Virus record (IMG/VR): IMGVR_UViG_3300045256_000857 | Location: 1 to 60,488 of that record | Direction: 5' to 3' (one strand) | DNA: 60,488 nucleotides | Source: a virus | Shown: in pieces, positions 8,761-20,127 of the stretch | Layout: every line of letters begins with the position of its first letter | Position numbering within the stretch: the stretch's first letter is position 1 | Program-made: the position numbers and the translations under genes | The notes under the pieces: generated by a model | Seen by the model: only the letters and a program-made list of their open reading frames with translations | The model's database searches: none | What the model was told of the DNA's origin: nothing

Positions 8761-8778
8761 GTCCCCTATTCCCCTAGG
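8761..8778 (-). repeat. CTAGGGGA tandem element, copy 1
   Basis: The minus strand reads CCTAGGGGAATAGGGGAC, two CTAGGGGA-like units. Its first TAG is the stop codon of the helicase gene, and its last bases abut the ATG at 8759. It therefore joins stop codon, Shine-Dalgarno-like purines and start codon in about 20 bp. Confidence 0.8.
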
Positions 8779-10333
8779 ATGCTGGCGCGGTGGGTTTGGC
8801 GGGCGCGTTGTCGGTCGCGCCGGGCGTTTGCACGATGTACAACTCGCGCATCGCGCGCGTCACCGCGACGTACTCGAGGTTCTTCTCCTGCGCTCGAGCC
8901 TGGCTGGATTTGGCCATCGGATGCGGGAGCTTTTCCGGGCAGAGGATGAAGACGCGCTCCGCCTCGAGCCCCTTGCTGCGGTGGATGGTGCTGAGCAGGA
9001 TCGTGCCGCGCTCCGGGTCGTCGGCGAACAGGTCTTGAATGTGGGCACGCACGTCCGCCAGCGACTGCGCTCCGGCGCGTCGCGCGTGCTCGTACACCGC
9101 CAGCACGCTCTCGGTCTTGTCGTTGATGCTGATGACCAGTTGCTCCGGGTCGGGGCGTTTCATGGCCTGCTTGATCTGGAATTCGCTCCACTGCCAGATC
9201 GCGTCCTCGAGCCGCTCGAACGTCGCGCCCTTCCACCCGCCGACCTCATCGAGAACCTTGAGCAGTTGCGCGCCGATGTCCCTGCCCTTGACCTTGGCGC
9301 GTTTGCCCTGGCGGATGAGCCAGAACGCCATGCCGATCAGCGGCGCGGTCACGCGGCACAGCACCATGTCGCGCTCGGTGACCTGGTGCGTGAACCAAGC
9401 CTCCTCGACCAGCTCGACCTTGCCGCGCGGCGCGTCGTCGCGGGCTTGCAGGTGCGGCACGATCTCCTGGGCGCGTTGCACGACGCTCCCGGCGCAGCGG
9501 TAACAGATTGAGAGCGGCAATTGCAGGGCGCGGGTGCGCTCGCCGATGCGCTCGAAAGAATCGTTGTTTGCCCCGGCAAAAGCGTAGATCGCTTGAAAAG
9601 GATCACCGACGAAGACCTTGCGACCCTGCGGATGCGTGCTGCGCAGGATCAACTCGAGTTGCGCGCTCGAGAGGTCTTGGCATTCGTCCACGAGCACGGT
9701 GCGGTACTGTTTCGGTGTCAAGTTGAGCGCCACCGGCAGGTAGACCATGTCGTCAAAGTCAATGATTCGCTCTGGACCGAACTCCTTGGAGTCAACCCCA
9801 AGACGCAGGATCACCGGCAATGCCTCGAGCATCAACTCGGGTTCCGGCAGGTCCACGTCGTAATCGGTGGCGATCTTCAGCACCGCGTCGGTCGTGGGCG
9901 GGGTCAGGGTCACGCGGACGATGTGCGCGAGCTTGTACAGGGCTTCCTTGGCTTCGCGCAGCTTCGGGTACTTCTCCGCCGCGCTCGAGCCGTAGAGGTC
10001 GTTCAGCGTCCAGTAGTGGTCAATGATCTTGTGGAACTTGCGGTTGTCCACGTTCAGGCGACCGAAGCGCGCGGCGAGGGCGGCGTACCCGACGCCGTGG
10101 ATGGTCTTGACGGTGACACCCCTGGGCGCGCGCTCCTCGAGCACCTTGGCGATTTCTTTGTTGAACGCGCAGAACAGCGTGTCCTCCAGGGTCGCCTGCG
10201 GTTGGCGTTTGAGCAGTTCCACAAGCGTCGTGGTCTTGCCGCTGCCCGCGACGGCGTTGACCTGAATGCTGCCGCCCGGCTCGAGCGCGTCGAAGCCGGT
10301 GAAGACCGCCGTCTGGTACTTGCTGGGCGTCAC
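8774..10333 (-). CDS. UvrD/Rep-like superfamily 1 DNA helicase
   Basis: 519 residues from a GTG that forms a GTGA overlap with the upstream stop. Walker A is near residues 25-34 (NAVAGSGKTT), Walker B is LVDECQDLS, and later come FVGDPFQAIYAFAGA (motif III), a TIHRSKGLEAERVF motif V and a YVAVTRAM motif VI. It lacks the long 1B/2B domains of full UvrD (about 720 residues). It probably unwinds DNA during phage replication or recombination. Inference on polarity is not possible. Confidence 0.9.
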   Translation of the reverse strand: MTPSKYQTAVFTGFDALEPGGSIQVNAVAGSGKTTTLVELLKRQPQATLEDTLFCAFNKEIAKVLEERAPRGVTVKTIHGVGYAALAARFGRLNVDNRKFHKIIDHYWTLNDLYGSSAAEKYPKLREAKEALYKLAHIVRVTLTPPTTDAVLKIATDYDVDLPEPELMLEALPVILRLGVDSKEFGPERIIDFDDMVYLPVALNLTPKQYRTVLVDECQDLSSAQLELILRSTHPQGRKVFVGDPFQAIYAFAGANNDSFERIGERTRALQLPLSICYRCAGSVVQRAQEIVPHLQARDDAPRGKVELVEEAWFTHQVTERDMVLCRVTAPLIGMAFWLIRQGKRAKVKGRDIGAQLLKVLDEVGGWKGATFERLEDAIWQWSEFQIKQAMKRPDPEQLVISINDKTESVLAVYEHARRAGAQSLADVRAHIQDLFADDPERGTILLSTIHRSKGLEAERVFILCPEKLPHPMAKSSQARAQEKNLEYVAVTRAMRELYIVQTPGATDNAPAKPTAPAS

Positions 10334-10581
10334 GGCTGCACCTCGCTCAACAAGAGCGCCTGGTACACCTTGACTCGAGCGCGGGCAAGTGCCAGTTCGC
10401 TCTCGGCAAACTCGCTTTCCGCCTGCCGGTGACGCACGGTGGTCTCGAGGGTAAACAAACCGTGCCTGGCTTGCTCGAGGTCGTCGTGAGCGCCGCTCAG
10501 TTCGCGCTTTGCAACCCTGGCGTTTCGGGTCGCCGCGTCCAGCACCTCGAGCGCTTCGGTCAACTGTTGGGCAATGTTCAT
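10330..10581 (-). CDS. Small coiled-coil protein, first gene of left operon
   Basis: 83 residues, almost entirely a charged helix with heptad-like spacing, ending in ARARVKVYQALLLSEVQP. AAAGGAG precedes the ATG. It is the promoter-proximal gene of the roughly 10-kb leftward operon, immediately downstream of the operator-promoter at 10,592-10,629. Function unknown; the position matches early regulatory or host-takeover genes of lambdoid left operons. Confidence 0.65.
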   Translation of the reverse strand: MNIAQQLTEALEVLDAATRNARVAKRELSGAHDDLEQARHGLFTLETTVRHRQAESEFAESELALARARVKVYQALLLSEVQP

Positions 10582-10943: not shown

Positions 10944-11705
10944 TCACAACGCGCGCCTCGAGACGACCTCGACCGCACGACCGACGACGACCGCTTCGTC
11001 CGGCGCGTAGGGTGGATACGCGGTGTTGTCGCTGGTGAGCATCACACCGACCGGATCCGGGTAGAGCCGCACACGCTTCAAGACACTGCCTACCCCGTCC
11101 ACACGCACGACGTAGATGCGGCGGTCGCGCGGCTCGAGGTCGGTGGTGTCTACCAGCACCACGTCGCCGTCGCGGATGTCGTTGGGACTGCCGGTGCTCA
11201 TGCTGTCGCCCATCACGCGCACCGCTTCGATGCCGGGACGCGCGAGGCTGCGCGGGATGCTGACCGCGCCGAAGTCGTGCGATTCAATCGGTAAGCCGTT
11301 CCCGGCGGCGGCGATGTCGCGCACGCGGACCATCACCCAGTCTTCGAGGTTGGTGGTGAACCCGCCGCGCTCGAGCGTTTCGGGCGTCAGTTCCTCGAGC
11401 GGGCGATTGCCTTTGAGGTACGGCACGCCCAGCGCGGCGAGCATCTCCTGCACGCTCCACTTGTAATGGGGTGCGTTGCGCTCGAACCAATCGAGGTTGT
11501 AGTTAGCGATGTTCTCGAAGCCCGCCTCGAGCCGCGACAGGTGCGCTTGGCTGACGTTCATTCGCCGCGCCATCGCGGTCTGCGTGCGCTCCCCGCTCGG
11601 GGTGTCGGGCAAGTTTTCGCGCCGGTCACGCAGCACGTCACCTTGCTTGATCCACGGGCCCGGCTCGCCTTTTCGCACCCGTGTCGTCGCCCCCTCAAGC
11701 GTCAT
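10944..11705 (-). CDS. CI/LexA-like phage repressor (HTH plus S24 peptidase)
   Basis: 253 residues. The HTH covers about residues 40-66 (AMARRMNVSQAHLSRLEAGF). The LexA-type domain has a likely self-cleavage site Ala134-Gly135 (IAAAGNG), nucleophile Ser168 (GDSM) and Lys210. It would maintain lysogeny and be inactivated by RecA after DNA damage. It is divergent from the Cro-like gene. The 40-residue N-terminal extension before the HTH is unusual; an internal start is possible. No strong Shine-Dalgarno is seen. Confidence 0.93.
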   Translation of the reverse strand: MTLEGATTRVRKGEPGPWIKQGDVLRDRRENLPDTPSGERTQTAMARRMNVSQAHLSRLEAGFENIANYNLDWFERNAPHYKWSVQEMLAALGVPYLKGNRPLEELTPETLERGGFTTNLEDWVMVRVRDIAAAGNGLPIESHDFGAVSIPRSLARPGIEAVRVMGDSMSTGSPNDIRDGDVVLVDTTDLEPRDRRIYVVRVDGVGSVLKRVRLYPDPVGVMLTSDNTAYPPYAPDEAVVVGRAVEVVSRRAL

Positions 11706-11739
11706 GGCGTCCAGAGTGACACCCTGGGCACTGTCCTGT

Positions 11740-11827
11740 CACATAAGTTATAGGGTATAACCAAAGTCCCGGTACAACGTGACCAATAGTTGACCCTATA
11801 GGCTCTGACCAATATACTGATAACCAA
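11740..11827. promoter_or_regulatory. Immunity switch: rightward promoter and operators
   Basis: Rightward: TTGACC (11,790-11,795), 17 bp, TATACT (11,813-11,818), then only 8 nt to the ATG, so the cro message is probably leaderless. Operator-like sites are CCAATATACTGATAACCAA (11,809-11,827, inverted copy of the shared 19-mer), GGCTCTGACC in the spacer, ACCAATAGTTGACC (11,782-11,795) and GGGTATAACCAAAG (11,753-11,766). Leftward, a TATAAC-like -10 near 11,747-11,752 may serve the repressor. Confidence 0.8.
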
Positions 11828-12051
11828 TGGCACTAAGTCAAGTCTTGCAGCAACTCAACCTCGAGACCGGACTTCGCGTCAAGGAGGTCTCCGACCTCTC
11901 CGGCATCCGCCAGAGCGAGGTGAGCGAAATCCTCAACGGCCACAACACCAACCCGAAGCTCAACACCCTGCGCGCCTTGGCGCTCGCGTATGGCTTGCGT
12001 CTGGACGAATTCGTCACGCGGATGTGTGCGCTCGAGGACGGCAAGCGATGA
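11827..12051 (+). CDS. Cro-like HTH regulator
   Basis: 74 residues containing little beyond an XRE-type HTH: LRVKEVSDLSGIRQSEVSEI at about residues 13-33, then LNGHNTNPKLNTLRALALAYG. Expected to bind the same operators as the divergent repressor and favour lytic growth. The -10 ends 8 nt before its ATG. A tail (RMCALEDGKR) overlaps the next gene in an ATGA. Confidence 0.85.
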   Translation: MALSQVLQQLNLETGLRVKEVSDLSGIRQSEVSEILNGHNTNPKLNTLRALALAYGLRLDEFVTRMCALEDGKR

Positions 12052-14265: not shown

Positions 14266-15203
14266 TCCATCGTCGCCGCCGGGATCGCGGCTTTTTTCAG
14301 ATGTCCAACCGCCCGGCTCAGGACAAAACCCTGAGCCTCGAGGCCAAGGGGCTGCTCGCGGTGATGATGTGCCGCCCCGAGGACTGGCAGTTCTCCATGA
14401 CCTGGCTCGAGGCGCAGAGCGACAACGGTACGCACGCGCATCAGCGGGCTCTCGCCGAACTCGAGCGGCACGGTTACGTCGTGCGCGGGCAGCGGCGCGA
14501 CTCGAACAACCGCATCACGGGCGTCGAGTGGGTCGTGGACGACGAACCCATGAAGGCCAGTGAGGTGCTTGGTGAATACGGGCTGACACCGCTGCCTCGA
14601 GCGAAAACCCGAAAGGGCACTGTCCCAGACGCGAAGTTTCCAGACGGCGGTTTTTCAGTGACTGGAAATCCCGGACGCGGGAAATCCGGGAGTACTAATA
14701 CGGGAACTTCACTAACACGTGAGGACAAAGACACCCCCTTACCCCCTGCGGGGGCTGGAGGGGCGCAGGCGGTCGAAGGTGAGAGTCCGCCCGAGGAACC
14801 CCCTTCGGACGCCGGTGAACGTGACCCTGTTGAACCGGGCAGGCCGGGCCGTGCCGGGAAGACGCGCACAGGTGGGAAGGATCTTCCGCGCGGCGCGGCG
14901 CGCAAAAATCCTGCGTGGGACGCGTTCTGTGCCGAGAACCCCGTGCCTGAGTGGTTGGATTTAACACACTGGGACAAGTGGCTCAAGGACTTGGGCGAGC
15001 GCCGCGTAAAGATGACCACCGGACGCATCGAGGCGCAACTCGAAGCCCTCGAGACGCTCGTTAAGGCGGGCGAGACGCAGGCGGCGATCATCAAGCGCAG
15101 CATCGGGCGCGGCTGGCAGAGCTTCTACCCGGAGCGCGGCGCACCTTCAGCGGGTGACGCGAAGTCCGAAGCGAGCGATCAGTACTCGAGGTTTCGCCGA
15201 TGA
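14262..15203 (+). CDS. Replication initiator-like protein
   Basis: 313 residues. The N-terminal 95 residues form a winged-helix domain typical of phage replication proteins (LSLEAKGLLAVMM, WLEAQSDNGTHAHQRALAEL, GYVVRG). A long Pro/Gly/Thr linker follows, then a C-terminal domain (about residues 225-300) ending IGRGWQSFYPE, a common C-terminal signature of phage replisome organisers. It precedes a DnaC-like loader in an ATGA overlap, as in lambda O-P or DnaD-DnaC pairs. It probably binds the phage origin. Confidence 0.8.
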   Translation: MIHRRRRDRGFFQMSNRPAQDKTLSLEAKGLLAVMMCRPEDWQFSMTWLEAQSDNGTHAHQRALAELERHGYVVRGQRRDSNNRITGVEWVVDDEPMKASEVLGEYGLTPLPRAKTRKGTVPDAKFPDGGFSVTGNPGRGKSGSTNTGTSLTREDKDTPLPPAGAGGAQAVEGESPPEEPPSDAGERDPVEPGRPGRAGKTRTGGKDLPRGAARKNPAWDAFCAENPVPEWLDLTHWDKWLKDLGERRVKMTTGRIEAQLEALETLVKAGETQAAIIKRSIGRGWQSFYPERGAPSAGDAKSEASDQYSRFRR

Positions 15204-16147
15204 CGCGCGACATCCCGATTCCGCGCTTCGACGAAGAGGGCAAGTTCGTCGGATACGTCGGAGCGCGCACCGTGGAGGTGCTTGAGCCGACCCCCGTGAC
15301 CCCGCCGCTCGCCGCACGGCTCGAGGGCGAACTCGTTGCCCTGGCAAAACGCCCGCGACGAGTGCGCGACATTGACCCCGAACTGCCCGTGTGCCCGGTG
15401 TGCGGCGCTCGAGACGACGCGGGCGACGTGCTGCGCGGCGGTGCGTACCGGACCGACTGGCGCGACCTGTACGACCTCGAGCACGACTGCGATTGCGGCG
15501 TGAAGCACCCCGACGCTTACGACGCGGGTTTGGTCGCGCTGTGGCAGGCTCGAGGGCGGCGCAAAGCGTTCATGCTCAGCGTGCCCGAGCGCTTCCACGA
15601 CGCGCGACTGACCAATTACCGTCAGCAACCGGGCAACGTGGACGCCTACCGCGCCGCTCGAGCGCTCGAACTGGGCTCGAGCCTCTACATTCACGGCGAC
15701 CCCGGCAACGGTAAGACACACCTCGCGGTCGCCGCCGCGCTGCGCCTGACCGCGCGCGGCACGGCGCGTTACCAGAGTTGCGCGACCCTGCGCGGCGACG
15801 TGATGGACGCCATTCGCGCCAAGGGCGAGAAACCCGATTGGCTCACGCCGGACGTGCTGATCCTGGACGACATGGACAAGGCCGCGCCGGGCGAGTTCGT
15901 CTTTGAACTCGTCTTCAGTGCCCTGGACATGCGTTGGTCGCGCGGCAAGACGACCATCGTCACCGCGAACCACGCGCCCGGTTGGGTGGCGGACCGAATC
16001 GCGGTCATTAAACAGGGCGACGCGCTGGTGCGTGACCGACCGAGCGCGAACGCGTTGCTCTCGAGGTTGACCAGCGGCGTCACAGTGGAGGTCGTCGCGC
16101 CCGATCAGCGCATCGGGCGCGACGGAAAGGACAGTCATGGCGAGTGA
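15200..16147 (+). CDS. DnaC-like AAA+ helicase loader
   Basis: 315 residues. A zinc-type CPVCGARDD plus CDCG lies near residues 65-100. Walker A (GDPGNGKTHL) is near 165-174, Walker B (VLILDDMD) near 217-224, followed by ANHAPGW and SRLTSG (sensor/arginine-finger region). It should load the host replicative helicase at the origin bound by the preceding protein. Length and order fit phage DnaC/DnaI families. Confidence 0.85.
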   Translation: MTRDIPIPRFDEEGKFVGYVGARTVEVLEPTPVTPPLAARLEGELVALAKRPRRVRDIDPELPVCPVCGARDDAGDVLRGGAYRTDWRDLYDLEHDCDCGVKHPDAYDAGLVALWQARGRRKAFMLSVPERFHDARLTNYRQQPGNVDAYRAARALELGSSLYIHGDPGNGKTHLAVAAALRLTARGTARYQSCATLRGDVMDAIRAKGEKPDWLTPDVLILDDMDKAAPGEFVFELVFSALDMRWSRGKTTIVTANHAPGWVADRIAVIKQGDALVRDRPSANALLSRLTSGVTVEVVAPDQRIGRDGKDSHGE

Positions 16148-16789: not shown

Positions 16790-17465
16790 AACCCAAATCC
16801 TTTGCGAGCGCCTGCGCGTCCTCAACCGCCAAGGGCTCGAGGCGATGCTCTCCCAGGCGGTGGTGGTCCTCGAACTCGAGGGGCGTCCCGACGTGGAGCG
16901 GATCGGCGTACTCGCCTTCTGCGCGGGCGACGAGCACCTGCGCTGGTCGCACTGGACGACGAGCACGCGCCTCACTGTGGGCACGTACCTCACGCGTCCC
17001 CTGGGGCTCGAGCGCGTCTTGGGTGCGCGCTTCTCCGAGTTCCGCGTCGCGTACCGCGCTGCCCAGCACGCCAAACGCTTGCTTCTCGGGCGTGACCGCT
17101 ACACGCCCAGCGCGGCGGCAGAGGCGGCGCTCGAGCTGTTCAAACCCTTGCGCCGCGACGAGGCCGAAGAACTGCACAACCGCCTCAAAGCAGAGAATTT
17201 CGAGCCTGTAGCCGTTGACCTGGGCATCACCGCGCCCGTCGTCTCCGAGGCGTTCACGATGGGCTTCGCGCGCTTCGAGGCGATCACCGGCAACTCGCGC
17301 ACGCAGGCGCTAGAGCGCATCGGCGGCATCCTCAACGACTTTGACGACCTGACCCTGCGCGCGCTGGACGCGGCTGCGGTCGCCGGTGTTCACGACCTTG
17401 CGGGCGTCGTGCGGATCGCCCTTGACCTACTCGAGACCGAGCCCGGGCATACCCTAGTCACCTGA
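16773..17465 (+). CDS. Hypothetical helical protein, end of replication operon
   Basis: 230 residues, start at the ATG after CAGGAGCGCAA, overlapping the previous gene by 17 nt. Predominantly helical throughout with no transmembrane segment. It includes EHLRWSHWTTSTRLTVGTYL and a C-terminal helical repeat. No recognised family. A promoter-like region with a repeat element follows its stop. Confidence 0.6.
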   Translation: MNLSPETQILCERLRVLNRQGLEAMLSQAVVVLELEGRPDVERIGVLAFCAGDEHLRWSHWTTSTRLTVGTYLTRPLGLERVLGARFSEFRVAYRAAQHAKRLLLGRDRYTPSAAAEAALELFKPLRRDEAEELHNRLKAENFEPVAVDLGITAPVVSEAFTMGFARFEAITGNSRTQALERIGGILNDFDDLTLRALDAAAVAGVHDLAGVVRIALDLLETEPGHTLVT

Positions 17466-17509
17466 TGCGGACCTGATACAATCCTAATCCTAGGGGACTA
17501 GGGGAACAG
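17466..17509 (+). promoter_or_regulatory. Promoter-like region with CTAGGGGA element copy 3
   Basis: A TACAAT -10-like hexamer (17,476-17,481) is preceded at 16 bp by TAGTCA (17,454-17,459, inside the previous gene). Perfect CCTAGGGGACTAGGGGA (17,489-17,505) lies between it and the GTG at 17,510, where AGGGGA serves as a ribosome site 5 nt away. Confidence 0.55.
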
Positions 17510-18007
17510 GTGACGCGACTCGAGCAGAGCGGGTTGGTAACACGCGGGGCGATCATGCTCCTCGGGCGCGATGATCGCCCCGCCCTCTCGTACATCCCCG
17601 GCTGTCACTGGCCCGGCGTGGACAACGTACCCGACGACGGCTACACGGTGGACTACCTTCCCGGAACCGAGATTGAACCTGTGACCGACAATTTCGAGCT
17701 GGAAACCGCGAACGTTCGTAATATGCTCTGGCATGCCGCCTGGCGTGCCCACGAACACACGTACCGCGTGCTCATGGCGCTCGACGCGACCGGAGACGTG
17801 CATGTCTCGAGGGTCAGTTACGCCCCGGTCGTGGGTCTGGGCAGGGAGTGGTTTATTCGCACGTTGACCAAACTCGACGCCCTGGGCTACATCACGCGCA
17901 GCCGCGAGAGCATCGCGCTGCGCCCCGAGTGGCGCGGGTTCTTCTGGGATTTCCTGGCAGACAAAAGAGCGGGGGCGGCTCGAGCCGCCCCGTTGGAGAT
18001 CGCGTGA
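17510..18007 (+). CDS. Winged-helix-type regulator (putative)
   Basis: 165 residues from GTG. The N-terminal 80 residues are unrecognised and beta-rich. Residues about 82-150 (HTYRVLMALDATGDVHVSRVSYAPVVGLGREWFIRTLTKLDALGYITRSRESIAL, read as helices plus wing) resemble a winged helix. It is the first gene of the segment leading to the TPR regulator, so it may control or be controlled with it. Partner DNA unknown. Confidence 0.5.
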   Translation: MTRLEQSGLVTRGAIMLLGRDDRPALSYIPGCHWPGVDNVPDDGYTVDYLPGTEIEPVTDNFELETANVRNMLWHAAWRAHEHTYRVLMALDATGDVHVSRVSYAPVVGLGREWFIRTLTKLDALGYITRSRESIALRPEWRGFFWDFLADKRAGAARAAPLEIA

Positions 18008-18018
18008 CCGCGCCGCGT

Positions 18019-18135
18019 TCAGCAGCCCTTGCTGCAAAGACCACCGCTGCCCGACGTGCCGTCGGCGTGGGCGACGGGTGCGCTGGCGGCGAACAAGGTC
18101 AGGGCGAGCAGCACGAGCTTCAACAAGTTCTTCAT
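18019..18135 (-). CDS. Tiny secreted peptide precursor (38 residues)
   Basis: Reading the minus strand from the ATG at 18,133-18,135 gives a textbook Sec signal peptide: basic MKNLLK, hydrophobic core LVLLALTLFAA, and an AHA cleavage site. The predicted mature peptide is DGTSGSGGLCSKGC (14 residues, two Cys). AAGGAGG lies 5 nt before the ATG. It faces the TPR regulator. Its codons are exactly antisense to a possible N-terminal extension of that gene, so the two readings compete; the signal peptide plus ribosome site favour this one. A signalling role is inferred from context, not shown. Confidence 0.65.
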   Translation of the reverse strand: MKNLLKLVLLALTLFAASAPVAHADGTSGSGGLCSKGC

Positions 18136-18153
18136 ACGTCCTCCTTGTCGGCC

Positions 18154-19587
18154 GTGCCCGCGCTGATCTTGCAGCGACGGTTCGCCGACGCCCAAAGGGT
18201 ACTAAGCCAGCACGAAGCCCGGAGTGAACTAGTGCAACGCTGGGACGCGATGCTCGTCTTACAGCAGGGCAACGCGCAAGCGGCAGCGGCAGGGCTCGAG
18301 CGCCTGTGGGCGGCGGGCGACGTGGATGCGACCGGGTTGCTCGCGTGCGCGCAGCGCCAACTTGGGGAGCCCCGCGCGTACCTGATGGCGGTCTCGAGCG
18401 AGGACAGCGCGCGCATGACTCCGGCGATGCGCGCCTACTACGAGCGCGAACGCGGACTGCTGCACCAGGAGCGCGAGGAGTGGCATCACGCCGCGCACTG
18501 GTTCGAGCGCGCTTGGAACACCTGCCAGCACAGCGACCTGCGCGCCTATCAACTTGCGCCCATCGGGCAGGACTTCGCGCAGATGCTCGAGCGACTGGGC
18601 GAAGACGCCCGCGCCGTGCAAGTGCTCGAGGCCTACCTGAGTGCGGCGACCGACGACCGCCGCCTCGTCGCGCTCGCGCGGCTGCACCTGTGCCTGACCC
18701 GCCTGGGTCGCCTGAGCGACGCCGCTGCGCTCGAGCCGGGCGCAGGTGTCGCCTGGGCGTATGCGCGCATGGTCTTCGAGCGTTACTCGGGACGCCCGAA
18801 CGCCGCGTTGCTGCTGGGCGCTGATCGCCTGGTCTTCCCGCCGGGCGAACACATGGCTCAAGCCGATTACCGCTGGTTCGTGTTCTACCAGGCGGTGCTG
18901 GCGACCCGCGAGCGCTCGAGCGGCGACGCCAACAACCTCTTGGCGATGACCTTCCTGCGCGACAATGCCGACACCGAGCGCGAACGCGCGTTCCTGTCCC
19001 TGCTCGAGGCGCGCGAGTGCCTGCACACGAACAACGTGAAAAGCGCCGAGTTTCGCACGTCCGAAGCCATCGCGCGCTTCGCGTATCAGCAACTCCGGCG
19101 TGAGGAAGCCTTAGCGCACCTCGTCATGGTCGAGGTCTGCGAGCGCATCGGGGAACCCTTGCGCGCTCAGCGCTCGCTCGAGCGCGCCCTCGAGATCGCC
19201 ACGCCGCGCGGCTTGGGCTTCTTTCTCGAGTGCGAAGCCCGCGCCCTGCCGCGCGCCCGCGAACTGCTGGCGCGCAGTAACCCGCGCGACTCGAGCGCCG
19301 AAGCCAACGTCATCACCGTCTACGACGAGCATCTGACCGTCAACGGCAAACCGCTCAGGCTGCGCTACAAGGGCGCGGCGCGCCTGTTCAAGTACGTCGT
19401 CGCCAACCCCGAGTTCACGATGGAAGCGGTGTGCGTTGCCCTCGAGTACTTCGACGCGAACTGGATCCATCAACTCAAGCACGCCCTGTGCCGCGAGGTT
19501 CCGGGCTTGAGCATCGAGTACGACCGCGAACAAAAGCGCTACACCACGCGCCTCGAGAACGCTGTCGTGCGCTACGCGGACGTTTGA
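18154..19587 (+). CDS. TPR protein with C-terminal winged-helix DNA-binding domain
   Basis: 477 residues from GTG 18,154. Alternatives are TTG 18,145, or GTG 18,004, which has GGAG upstream and a GTGA overlap but would encode a low-complexity extension over the peptide gene. Residues about 1-380 are helical TPR-like repeats (e.g. YYERERGLLHQEREEWHHAAHWFERA region, RAQRSLERALEIA). The last 95 residues look like an OmpR/SARP-type winged helix (DEHLTVNGKPLRLRYKGAARLFKYVV). TPR arrays in RRNPP regulators bind secreted peptides. Here the DNA-binding domain is C-terminal instead. Confidence 0.75.
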   Translation: MPALILQRRFADAQRVLSQHEARSELVQRWDAMLVLQQGNAQAAAAGLERLWAAGDVDATGLLACAQRQLGEPRAYLMAVSSEDSARMTPAMRAYYERERGLLHQEREEWHHAAHWFERAWNTCQHSDLRAYQLAPIGQDFAQMLERLGEDARAVQVLEAYLSAATDDRRLVALARLHLCLTRLGRLSDAAALEPGAGVAWAYARMVFERYSGRPNAALLLGADRLVFPPGEHMAQADYRWFVFYQAVLATRERSSGDANNLLAMTFLRDNADTERERAFLSLLEARECLHTNNVKSAEFRTSEAIARFAYQQLRREEALAHLVMVEVCERIGEPLRAQRSLERALEIATPRGLGFFLECEARALPRARELLARSNPRDSSAEANVITVYDEHLTVNGKPLRLRYKGAARLFKYVVANPEFTMEAVCVALEYFDANWIHQLKHALCREVPGLSIEYDREQKRYTTRLENAVVRYADV

Positions 19588-19626: not shown

Positions 19627-20127
19627 GTGATCGTCCTGGCGTTCGACCCCGGCCCGCACAGCACCGCGTTCGCCCTCGTGCAGGGCGACGAGCGTCAGCA
19701 GCAGGTCGTGGAATCGGGCAAGGTGCTGAGCGCCGCGCCGGAGTTGAAAGCGCTGCTCGTGCGCGTGGCGACACGGGACGCGCGGCTCCTGGTCGCCGTG
19801 GAGACCGTCGCCGGGTACTTGGCGCACCCGGCTCGAGCCGCCAGCCTGTTCGAGACCGCCAGGGTCGCCGGGTTGATTCTCGGACTCGCGCATCCGTGCC
19901 CGACGTTCACCTTGCCCGCGAACGCGACCGGCAGTGCCGACTCGTGGCGCTTGCGGCTGTGCCGCAACCCCCGAGCCGGTGACGCACAGGTGCGTCGCGC
20001 GCTGACGGATCGCCGCGTGCGCGTGCGGGGTTTGAGCACGCACGAGCGGGACGCCGTGGGGCTCGGGGTGGTGACGCTGCTCTCGAGCCGCGTGATTCGC
20101 CGCCTGTACAACCTGGAGGCCGCGTGA
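19627..20127 (+). CDS. RuvC-like RNase H-fold nuclease
   Basis: 166 residues from GTG. The start LAFDPGPHSTAFAL gives the first acidic residue (Asp7), VAVETVAGYL the second, and STHERDAVGLG the third, as in RuvC-type Holliday junction resolvases. Length matches RuvC (about 170). It overlaps QueD by a GTGA and so heads the modification operon. It may resolve recombination intermediates before packaging. Confidence 0.75.
   Translation: MIVLAFDPGPHSTAFALVQGDERQQQVVESGKVLSAAPELKALLVRVATRDARLLVAVETVAGYLAHPARAASLFETARVAGLILGLAHPCPTFTLPANATGSADSWRLRLCRNPRAGDAQVRRALTDRRVRVRGLSTHERDAVGLGVVTLLSSRVIRRLYNLEAA

Follow-up and report, generated by a model that had tools for sequence, protein, structure and literature searches.

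The peptide gene and the divergent regulator gene

The window analysed here, i.e. the whole stretch of DNA at its full length, is a 60,488-base virus record from IMG/VR. On its minus strand lies a small gene (18019..18135, stop codon at 18019-18021) which, translated from 18135 to 18019, encodes the 38-aa product MKNLLKLVLLALTLFAASAPVAHADGTSGSGGLCSKGC with a predicted signal peptide (18064-18135) and a predicted mature peptide, DGTSGSGGLCSKGC (18022-18063), of 14 residues including two Cys (CxxxC). According to our own rule for Sec-type features it has a basic n-region, a hydrophobic core and an AxA-type site, cleavage being predicted as MKNLLKLVLLALTLFAASAPVAHA/DGTSGSGGLCSKGC. A Shine-Dalgarno sequence AAGGAGG can be read at 18140-18146 on the same strand; it had been placed 5 nt before the ATG by the first-pass annotation, and is indeed present, at a spacing of 4 nt. 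The GC content by codon position (0.54/0.54/0.87) is coding-like for the viral genome, and past the stop codon a consensus scan found an intrinsic terminator-like stem-loop with 8 G-C pairs and a T-rich tail on the minus strand (17962..17991, stem 17991-17972), two such sites being present in the region versus 0.4 in shuffles. While tblastn with the 38-aa peptide as sole query returned no relatives, the Shine-Dalgarno sequence, the GC3 of 0.87, the terminator and a motif common to the divergent peptides of Deinococcus homologues (see below) confirm at the sequence level that the peptide gene is real, and the minus-strand secreted-peptide gene proposed earlier is thus upheld, also by its recurrence.

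Divergent from it on the plus strand, with the two start codons 18 bp apart, is the gene for a regulator of 477 aa (18154..19587) that consists of a TPR region and a C-terminal winged helix (approximately 19300-19584), after which the protein ends. Its start is GTG 18154, with TTG 18145 as an alternative yielding a slightly longer protein. The window regulator is scarcely recognised by Pfam, PHROGs or NCBIfam, and its single-sequence Pfam TPR match is weak (0.06-0.07), whereas the profile of its family matches many TPR structures with E-values down to 7e-9, including the RRNPP receptor NprR (2e-6), and in its winged-helix part weakly matches EmbR (2fez) and OmpR-type regulators. At this profile level, the TPR resemblance to NprR and other TPR proteins is generic. 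A single-sequence structure model, with a mean pLDDT of 40, was too poor for a fold search. The assignment is based on profile matches, on a tree and on an alignment that covers the whole protein and includes TPR-winged helix-BTAD proteins from Deinococcus, and the alignment and the family profile agree with the first-pass description of a TPR protein of about 477 residues with a C-terminal winged helix opposite the peptide gene.

As the plus-strand frame of the regulator is open upstream to GTG 17848, the peptide frame might in principle be a chance antisense reading frame of a TPR gene starting at GTG 18004, which had been named as the main rival at first pass, or further upstream. However, the segment 18004-18153 has a GC content by codon position of 0.78/0.60/0.62, in contrast to 0.72/0.46/0.86 for the TPR gene proper, it overlaps the 3' end of the 17510-18007 reading frame, and the N-terminal extension it would encode is found in none of the aligned regulator relatives. 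Because the segment is thus non-coding in composition and the extension is missing from the relatives, a peptide gene next to a short TPR gene is the right reading, and the start at 18004 was rejected. The homologues accordingly display the opposite of a conserved extension with a non-conserved signal peptide. Given also the ribosome-binding site, GC3, terminator and family motif of the peptide gene, and the purifying selection on an orthologous pair of peptide genes (D7000 and QL22a, see below), an artefact has in large part already been refuted and is highly improbable.

The neighbouring gene on the plus strand (17510..18007, 165 aa), which is convergent with the peptide gene, has a weak Crp-type helix-turn-helix match under the curated cut-off (Pfam PF13545, 1.7e-4) and its own promoter-like site at 17455-17482; it is not claimed here as part of the peptide-regulator system.

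A regulator family on Deinococcus plasmids

When the regulator was compared by tblastn to a plasmid collection, exclusively Deinococcus proteins were matched, two of the three being annotated as BTAD regulators, and regulator homologues are almost exclusively from Deinococcus. All relatives were taken from plasmid records; scans of a genome contig collection found none. The plasmid relatives align across the full window regulator and are longer (615-656 aa), since their TPR region and winged helix are followed by a BTAD (Pfam PF03704, 4.5e-8 in KNUC1210), which is absent from the window regulator. By sequence, the latter is therefore a member of a Deinococcus family combining TPRs, a SARP-type winged helix and a BTAD, with the phage copy being devoid of the BTAD. 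In the tree, two clades, A and B, split with full support, and the window regulator falls into clade A beside KNUC1210 (84/88), a placement to be taken with caution on account of its long branch. The clade-A peptide of KNUC1210 is also the one most similar to the window peptide, as judged by eye.

Secreted peptides encoded opposite the relatives

Upstream of each regulator homologue, the antisense strand was searched for small secreted peptides (a slash marks the predicted cleavage site). In clade A, the window peptide (...AHA/DGTSGSGGLCSKGC) is joined by those of KNUC1210 (...SLAHA/DPTAGNGGGLGYQTLVTAPLLA), D7000 (...GFAGA/DPSTGHGPGLKPASPPPPPVCTTPCGN), QL22a (...GYVGA/DPSTGHGPGLKPASPPPPPVCTTSCGT), QL22b, where the regulator is broken (...GYAAA/DPSTGHEPSLKPAAGSPPVVTPKSYLW), D. 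taeanensis (...SALA/DPGTVGGGGLKITIPPSAPATSGW) and D. gobiensis (...GQA/EGNHSGGGWSTSTPPVVTVPKE), and clade B contributes two peptides each from D. aetherius (...FASA/GSKDFGQKAPISADGSKDFGDR and ...AQA/GGAHDFGQRAPAQTERTVQPGGGAHDFGQ) and KNUC1210 (...ALA/GGASVGGLERSVNSSTTTVQGTGK and ...VDA/GGVGFPSPERV...NGVGK), so that the type of peptide tracks the clade of the regulator. The near relatives have the motif A/D[PG]..G.GGL in common at the predicted mature N-terminus, and a C-terminal CxxxC is present in the window, D7000 and QL22a peptides. Propeptides of the relatives comprise 43-70 aa, the longest mature parts reaching about 38 residues, and in most paired relatives the start-to-start gap is 17-171 bp. 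None of the clade-A peptides is annotated in the records examined, the gene tables of the plasmid collection being incomplete, and three of the four clade-B peptides are annotated as hypothetical proteins.

The peptide genes of D7000 and QL22a differ in 21 codons, of which 15 are synonymous and 6 non-synonymous, and their 23 base changes are distributed 5/3/15 over the codon positions. As most changes are thus synonymous and fall on third positions, with the mature-peptide core DPSTGHGPGLKPASPPPPPVCTT identical in both, this peptide is translated and under selection.

Both D. aetherius peptides contain internal repeats (GGAHDFGQ and GSKDFG, each twice) which resemble some pheromone precursors. 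In this species a second small reading frame follows the peptide gene on the minus strand at each of two loci, ending in GGAVDFGQR at L201 (2656-2733), similar to GGAHDFGQ of the neighbouring peptide, and in SLDFGDR at L017 (3433-3567), similar to SKDFGDR. Beyond the peptide genes of KNUC1210 (L002, 3722-5044) and D7000 (L004, 3074-4414), genes for secreted-looking S8 and M23 peptidases, respectively, are located on the same strand, possibly encoding processing enzymes or representing regulated targets. Some peptide promoters carry SARP-like direct repeats spaced 21-22 bp, which in D. gobiensis and QL22 were reached in 1 and 10 of 1000 shuffles, respectively; none were found in the window, in KNUC1210, in D. 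taeanensis or in the three clade-B gaps long enough for the test, and since they are present in only some of the promoters they were dropped as evidence.

With respect to the question of whether the pairing exceeds chance, candidates had to start with ATG, comprise 28-75 aa with a charged n-region, a hydrophobic core and a cleavage site, and lie antisense at most 450 bp upstream. A divergent candidate for a secreted peptide was found at 10 of the 16 regulator loci. Among 389 control genes, taken from 799 kb of plasmid DNA of Deinococcus, 12 had one, and these 12 include one regulator locus; the corresponding p-value (1.5e-10, Fisher's exact test) is indicative, because the rules were fixed after the first examples were known and because D7000, QL22a and QL22b are related. 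Under a stricter rule requiring a Shine-Dalgarno sequence, the numbers were 4/13 versus 1/388 non-self controls. The remaining 6/16 loci were without a peptide by the rule used, which misses the D. gobiensis peptide, and at L014 the locus is interrupted by an insertion sequence. Independent of the pairing rule are the codon changes between D7000 and QL22a and the distribution of the motif, which in a scan of all the DNA compared here was found after a hydrophobic stretch mainly at the regulator loci described, the exceptions being one displaced copy (L014, close to the regulator of QL22c) and some matches unlike signal peptides. The displaced copy, in Deinococcus sp. QL22 at about 10290-10460 on the plus strand of L014, encodes an extra peptide of like kind (...SSALA/EGGGAVGGGGLRVKRQCQDNTYVACKIHFPQCSI) in an IS-rich stretch away from the nearby TPR-SARP gene. 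Taken as sequence evidence, these comparisons confirm that the peptide-regulator pairing, as claimed at first pass for the window, is conserved on Deinococcus plasmids beyond chance.

The phage and its surroundings

The window encodes a CI-like repressor with an S24 domain (10944-11705, minus strand), a Cro-like HTH protein (11827-12051), a DnaC-like loader (15200-16147), terminase subunits (24907 and 25514) and a tyrosine integrase (59256 to the window end), and hence represents a temperate phage, whose peptide-regulator pair comes after the replication module and before the packaging (terminase) genes. From the regulator's relatives, a Deinococcota host can be inferred. Viral contigs queried with the regulator sequence, with its alignment and with two DNA patterns for the peptide revealed no second phage with the pair, the pattern matches being due to chance, and the retrieved parts of the best 80 terminase relatives in viral contigs contained no TPR-SARP homologue. 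The pair thus recurs on Deinococcus plasmids, with no second phage case in the viral contigs, and since this leaves a single phage, the notion of phage communication rests on this phage together with the plasmid pairs. Relatives of the gene following the TPR gene (19627-20127) were not found.

Some further features of the phage were noted. An operator-like element, CCTAGGGGACTAGG, occurs at 8765, 13996, 17489, 24603, 24876, 30578, 33382 and 58947, i.e. in eight copies with at most one mismatch versus 0.36 expected. It is often part of a longer form, CCTAGGGGACTAGGGGA, in which CTAGGGGA is repeated in tandem and also makes up an inverted repeat. Several of the eight copies are located at gene starts or promoters, namely of the 17510 gene, the terminase small subunit gene and the 33435 gene, and none in the CI/Cro gap. 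This gap (11706-11826) contains a palindrome, GTTATAGGGTATAAC, and repeats of TGACCAATA, which might be CI operators. Between 20124 and 21873, genes for QueD-like (PTPS, 4.6e-23), QueE-like radical SAM and FolE-like proteins follow in a row, the latter two called by sequence motifs alone, and might constitute a 7-deazaguanine pathway, perhaps for phage DNA modification.

Comparison with known peptide-signalling systems

Like the RRNPP(A) systems (Rap, Rgg, NprR, PlcR, PrgX, AimR), which occur on chromosomes, plasmids and phages, the Deinococcus pair has a small Sec-type propeptide gene adjoining a gene for a TPR receptor-regulator. RRNPP criteria call for a Sec-secreted propeptide of 10-100 aa and a directly adjacent gene for a receptor of 250-500 aa with TPRs, the mature peptide being taken up and bound by these TPRs (PMC10075063). 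The window pair agrees with four of five computable points, i.e. propeptide length (38 aa, and 43-70 aa in the relatives), receptor length (477 aa, the 615-656 aa of the plasmid relatives lying outside the range), TPRs and adjacency; the fifth, Sec secretion, was judged by our own rule. The RRNPP domain order, an N-terminal HTH with C-terminal TPRs, differs: here the TPRs are N-terminal and a SARP/OmpR-type winged helix is C-terminal, so that the reversal of domain order noted at first pass is corroborated by the full-length alignment and the family profile. Moreover, RRNPP systems belong to the Firmicutes and not to the Deinococcota, and the mature peptides here are longer and rich in Gly, Pro and Cys. 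Judged by domain order, type of DNA-binding domain and phylum, the pair is not an RRNPP member, although by analogy it most likely works like RRNPP or arbitrium systems. The 2023 survey of RRNPP systems dropped clusters whose TPRs are N-terminal and accepted only receptors of 250-500 aa (PMC10075063), and these filters would hide the Deinococcus family.

The arbitrium system AimR-AimP of Bacillus phages likewise places a TPR DNA-binding regulator beside a secreted peptide in a temperate phage, but its genes are co-directional and not divergent and its domain order differs, and no AimR family match to the window regulator was found in PHROGs or Pfam. TprA of Streptococcus pneumoniae, which belongs to another phylum, has its DNA-binding domain at the N-terminus. 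In TprA-PhrA and TprA2-PhrA2 the peptide gene lies, as here, on the strand opposite the adjoining TPR regulator gene (PMC5436883). With the SARP/AfsR-EmbR proteins, the Deinococcus plasmid relatives have in common a winged helix followed by a BTAD (Pfam PF03704; EmbR 2fez), which the window regulator lacks, and they differ in the large TPR domain ahead of the winged helix. SARP-type proteins are usually activators, and peptide partners are not known to be characteristic of them. A resemblance to the 11-bp repeat unit of SARPs (PMC5930380) is seen in the 21-22 bp direct repeats that some peptide promoters carry. In searches of an open-access literature library, no description of such a peptide-regulator system in Deinococcus was found.

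A candidate pheromone and its receptor

What the sequence establishes is that a small gene for a Sec-type propeptide accompanies, in divergent orientation, the TPR/winged-helix regulator gene both on plasmids of Deinococcus and in a temperate phage of Deinococcus type. The peptide is probably a pheromone and the TPR/winged-helix protein its cytoplasmic receptor-regulator. On export, cleavage behind Ala would leave D/E-x-...-G-G-L or, in the second clade, G-G-... or G-S-..., and the mature peptide would then return to neighbouring cells or be sensed by the producer. There it may bind the superhelical groove of the TPR domain and so alter the action of the C-terminal winged helix, both at the divergent promoter common to the two genes, as autoregulation, and at the promoters of targets. 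The phage might use the pair to gauge how dense infected or lysogenic cells are, and to adjust its late gene expression or the choice between lysis and lysogeny. Tentatively, and with somewhat less confidence, the pairs might be regarded as a Deinococcota family of peptide-pheromone systems, in which the receptors join N-terminal TPRs to a SARP-type DNA-binding domain and the secreted peptides are divergently encoded. This family would have diversified into at least two clades on plasmids, and a temperate phage would have acquired it as an arbitrium-like cell-density sensor evolved independently of RRNPP.

Against a pheromone it can be held that Deinococcus is diderm, so that the peptide must pass two membranes, and that the pair is known from a single phage. 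Alternatively, the peptide could be a secreted effector, whether antibacterial peptide, protease inhibitor, envelope factor or exclusion factor; the TPR-SARP protein would then be no more than its dedicated transcription factor and sense another cue, in line with SARP regulators elsewhere activating adjacent biosynthetic genes and with the direct repeats in some peptide promoters. The two Cys of the window, D7000 and QL22a peptides and the Pro-rich tails point to folding or modification of the product, mature parts that reach about 38 residues are on the long side for a pheromone, and at two loci a secreted peptidase gene lies past the peptide gene. However, genes for maturation, immunity or export adjoin the peptide neither in the window nor at the plasmid loci examined, and the mature phage peptide has only 14 residues. 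Because two clade-B peptides contain internal repeats and the type of peptide matches the clade of the regulator, signalling is favoured, and an effector is rather unlikely. A peptide acting in or on the producing cell, as a timer or as a sensor of envelope or secretion stress to which the TPR protein responds, would involve no cell-to-cell communication yet predict the same anatomy, and a diderm envelope would make a periplasmic signal plausible; we nevertheless consider this improbable.

Peptide pheromones read by cytoplasmic TPR regulators have been described as a trait of the Firmicutes. The recurrence of the pair in a Deinococcus-type virus and on many Deinococcus plasmids suggests a so far undescribed peptide-signalling system outside this usual group. 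As the peptides are short and mostly unannotated, a pheromone role is directly testable with synthetic peptides. If true, signalling by TPR proteins and peptides, perhaps including that from phage to phage, would have arisen or spread well beyond the Firmicutes, to the diderm Deinococcus and one phage, where the order of domains and the type of DNA-binding domain are different.
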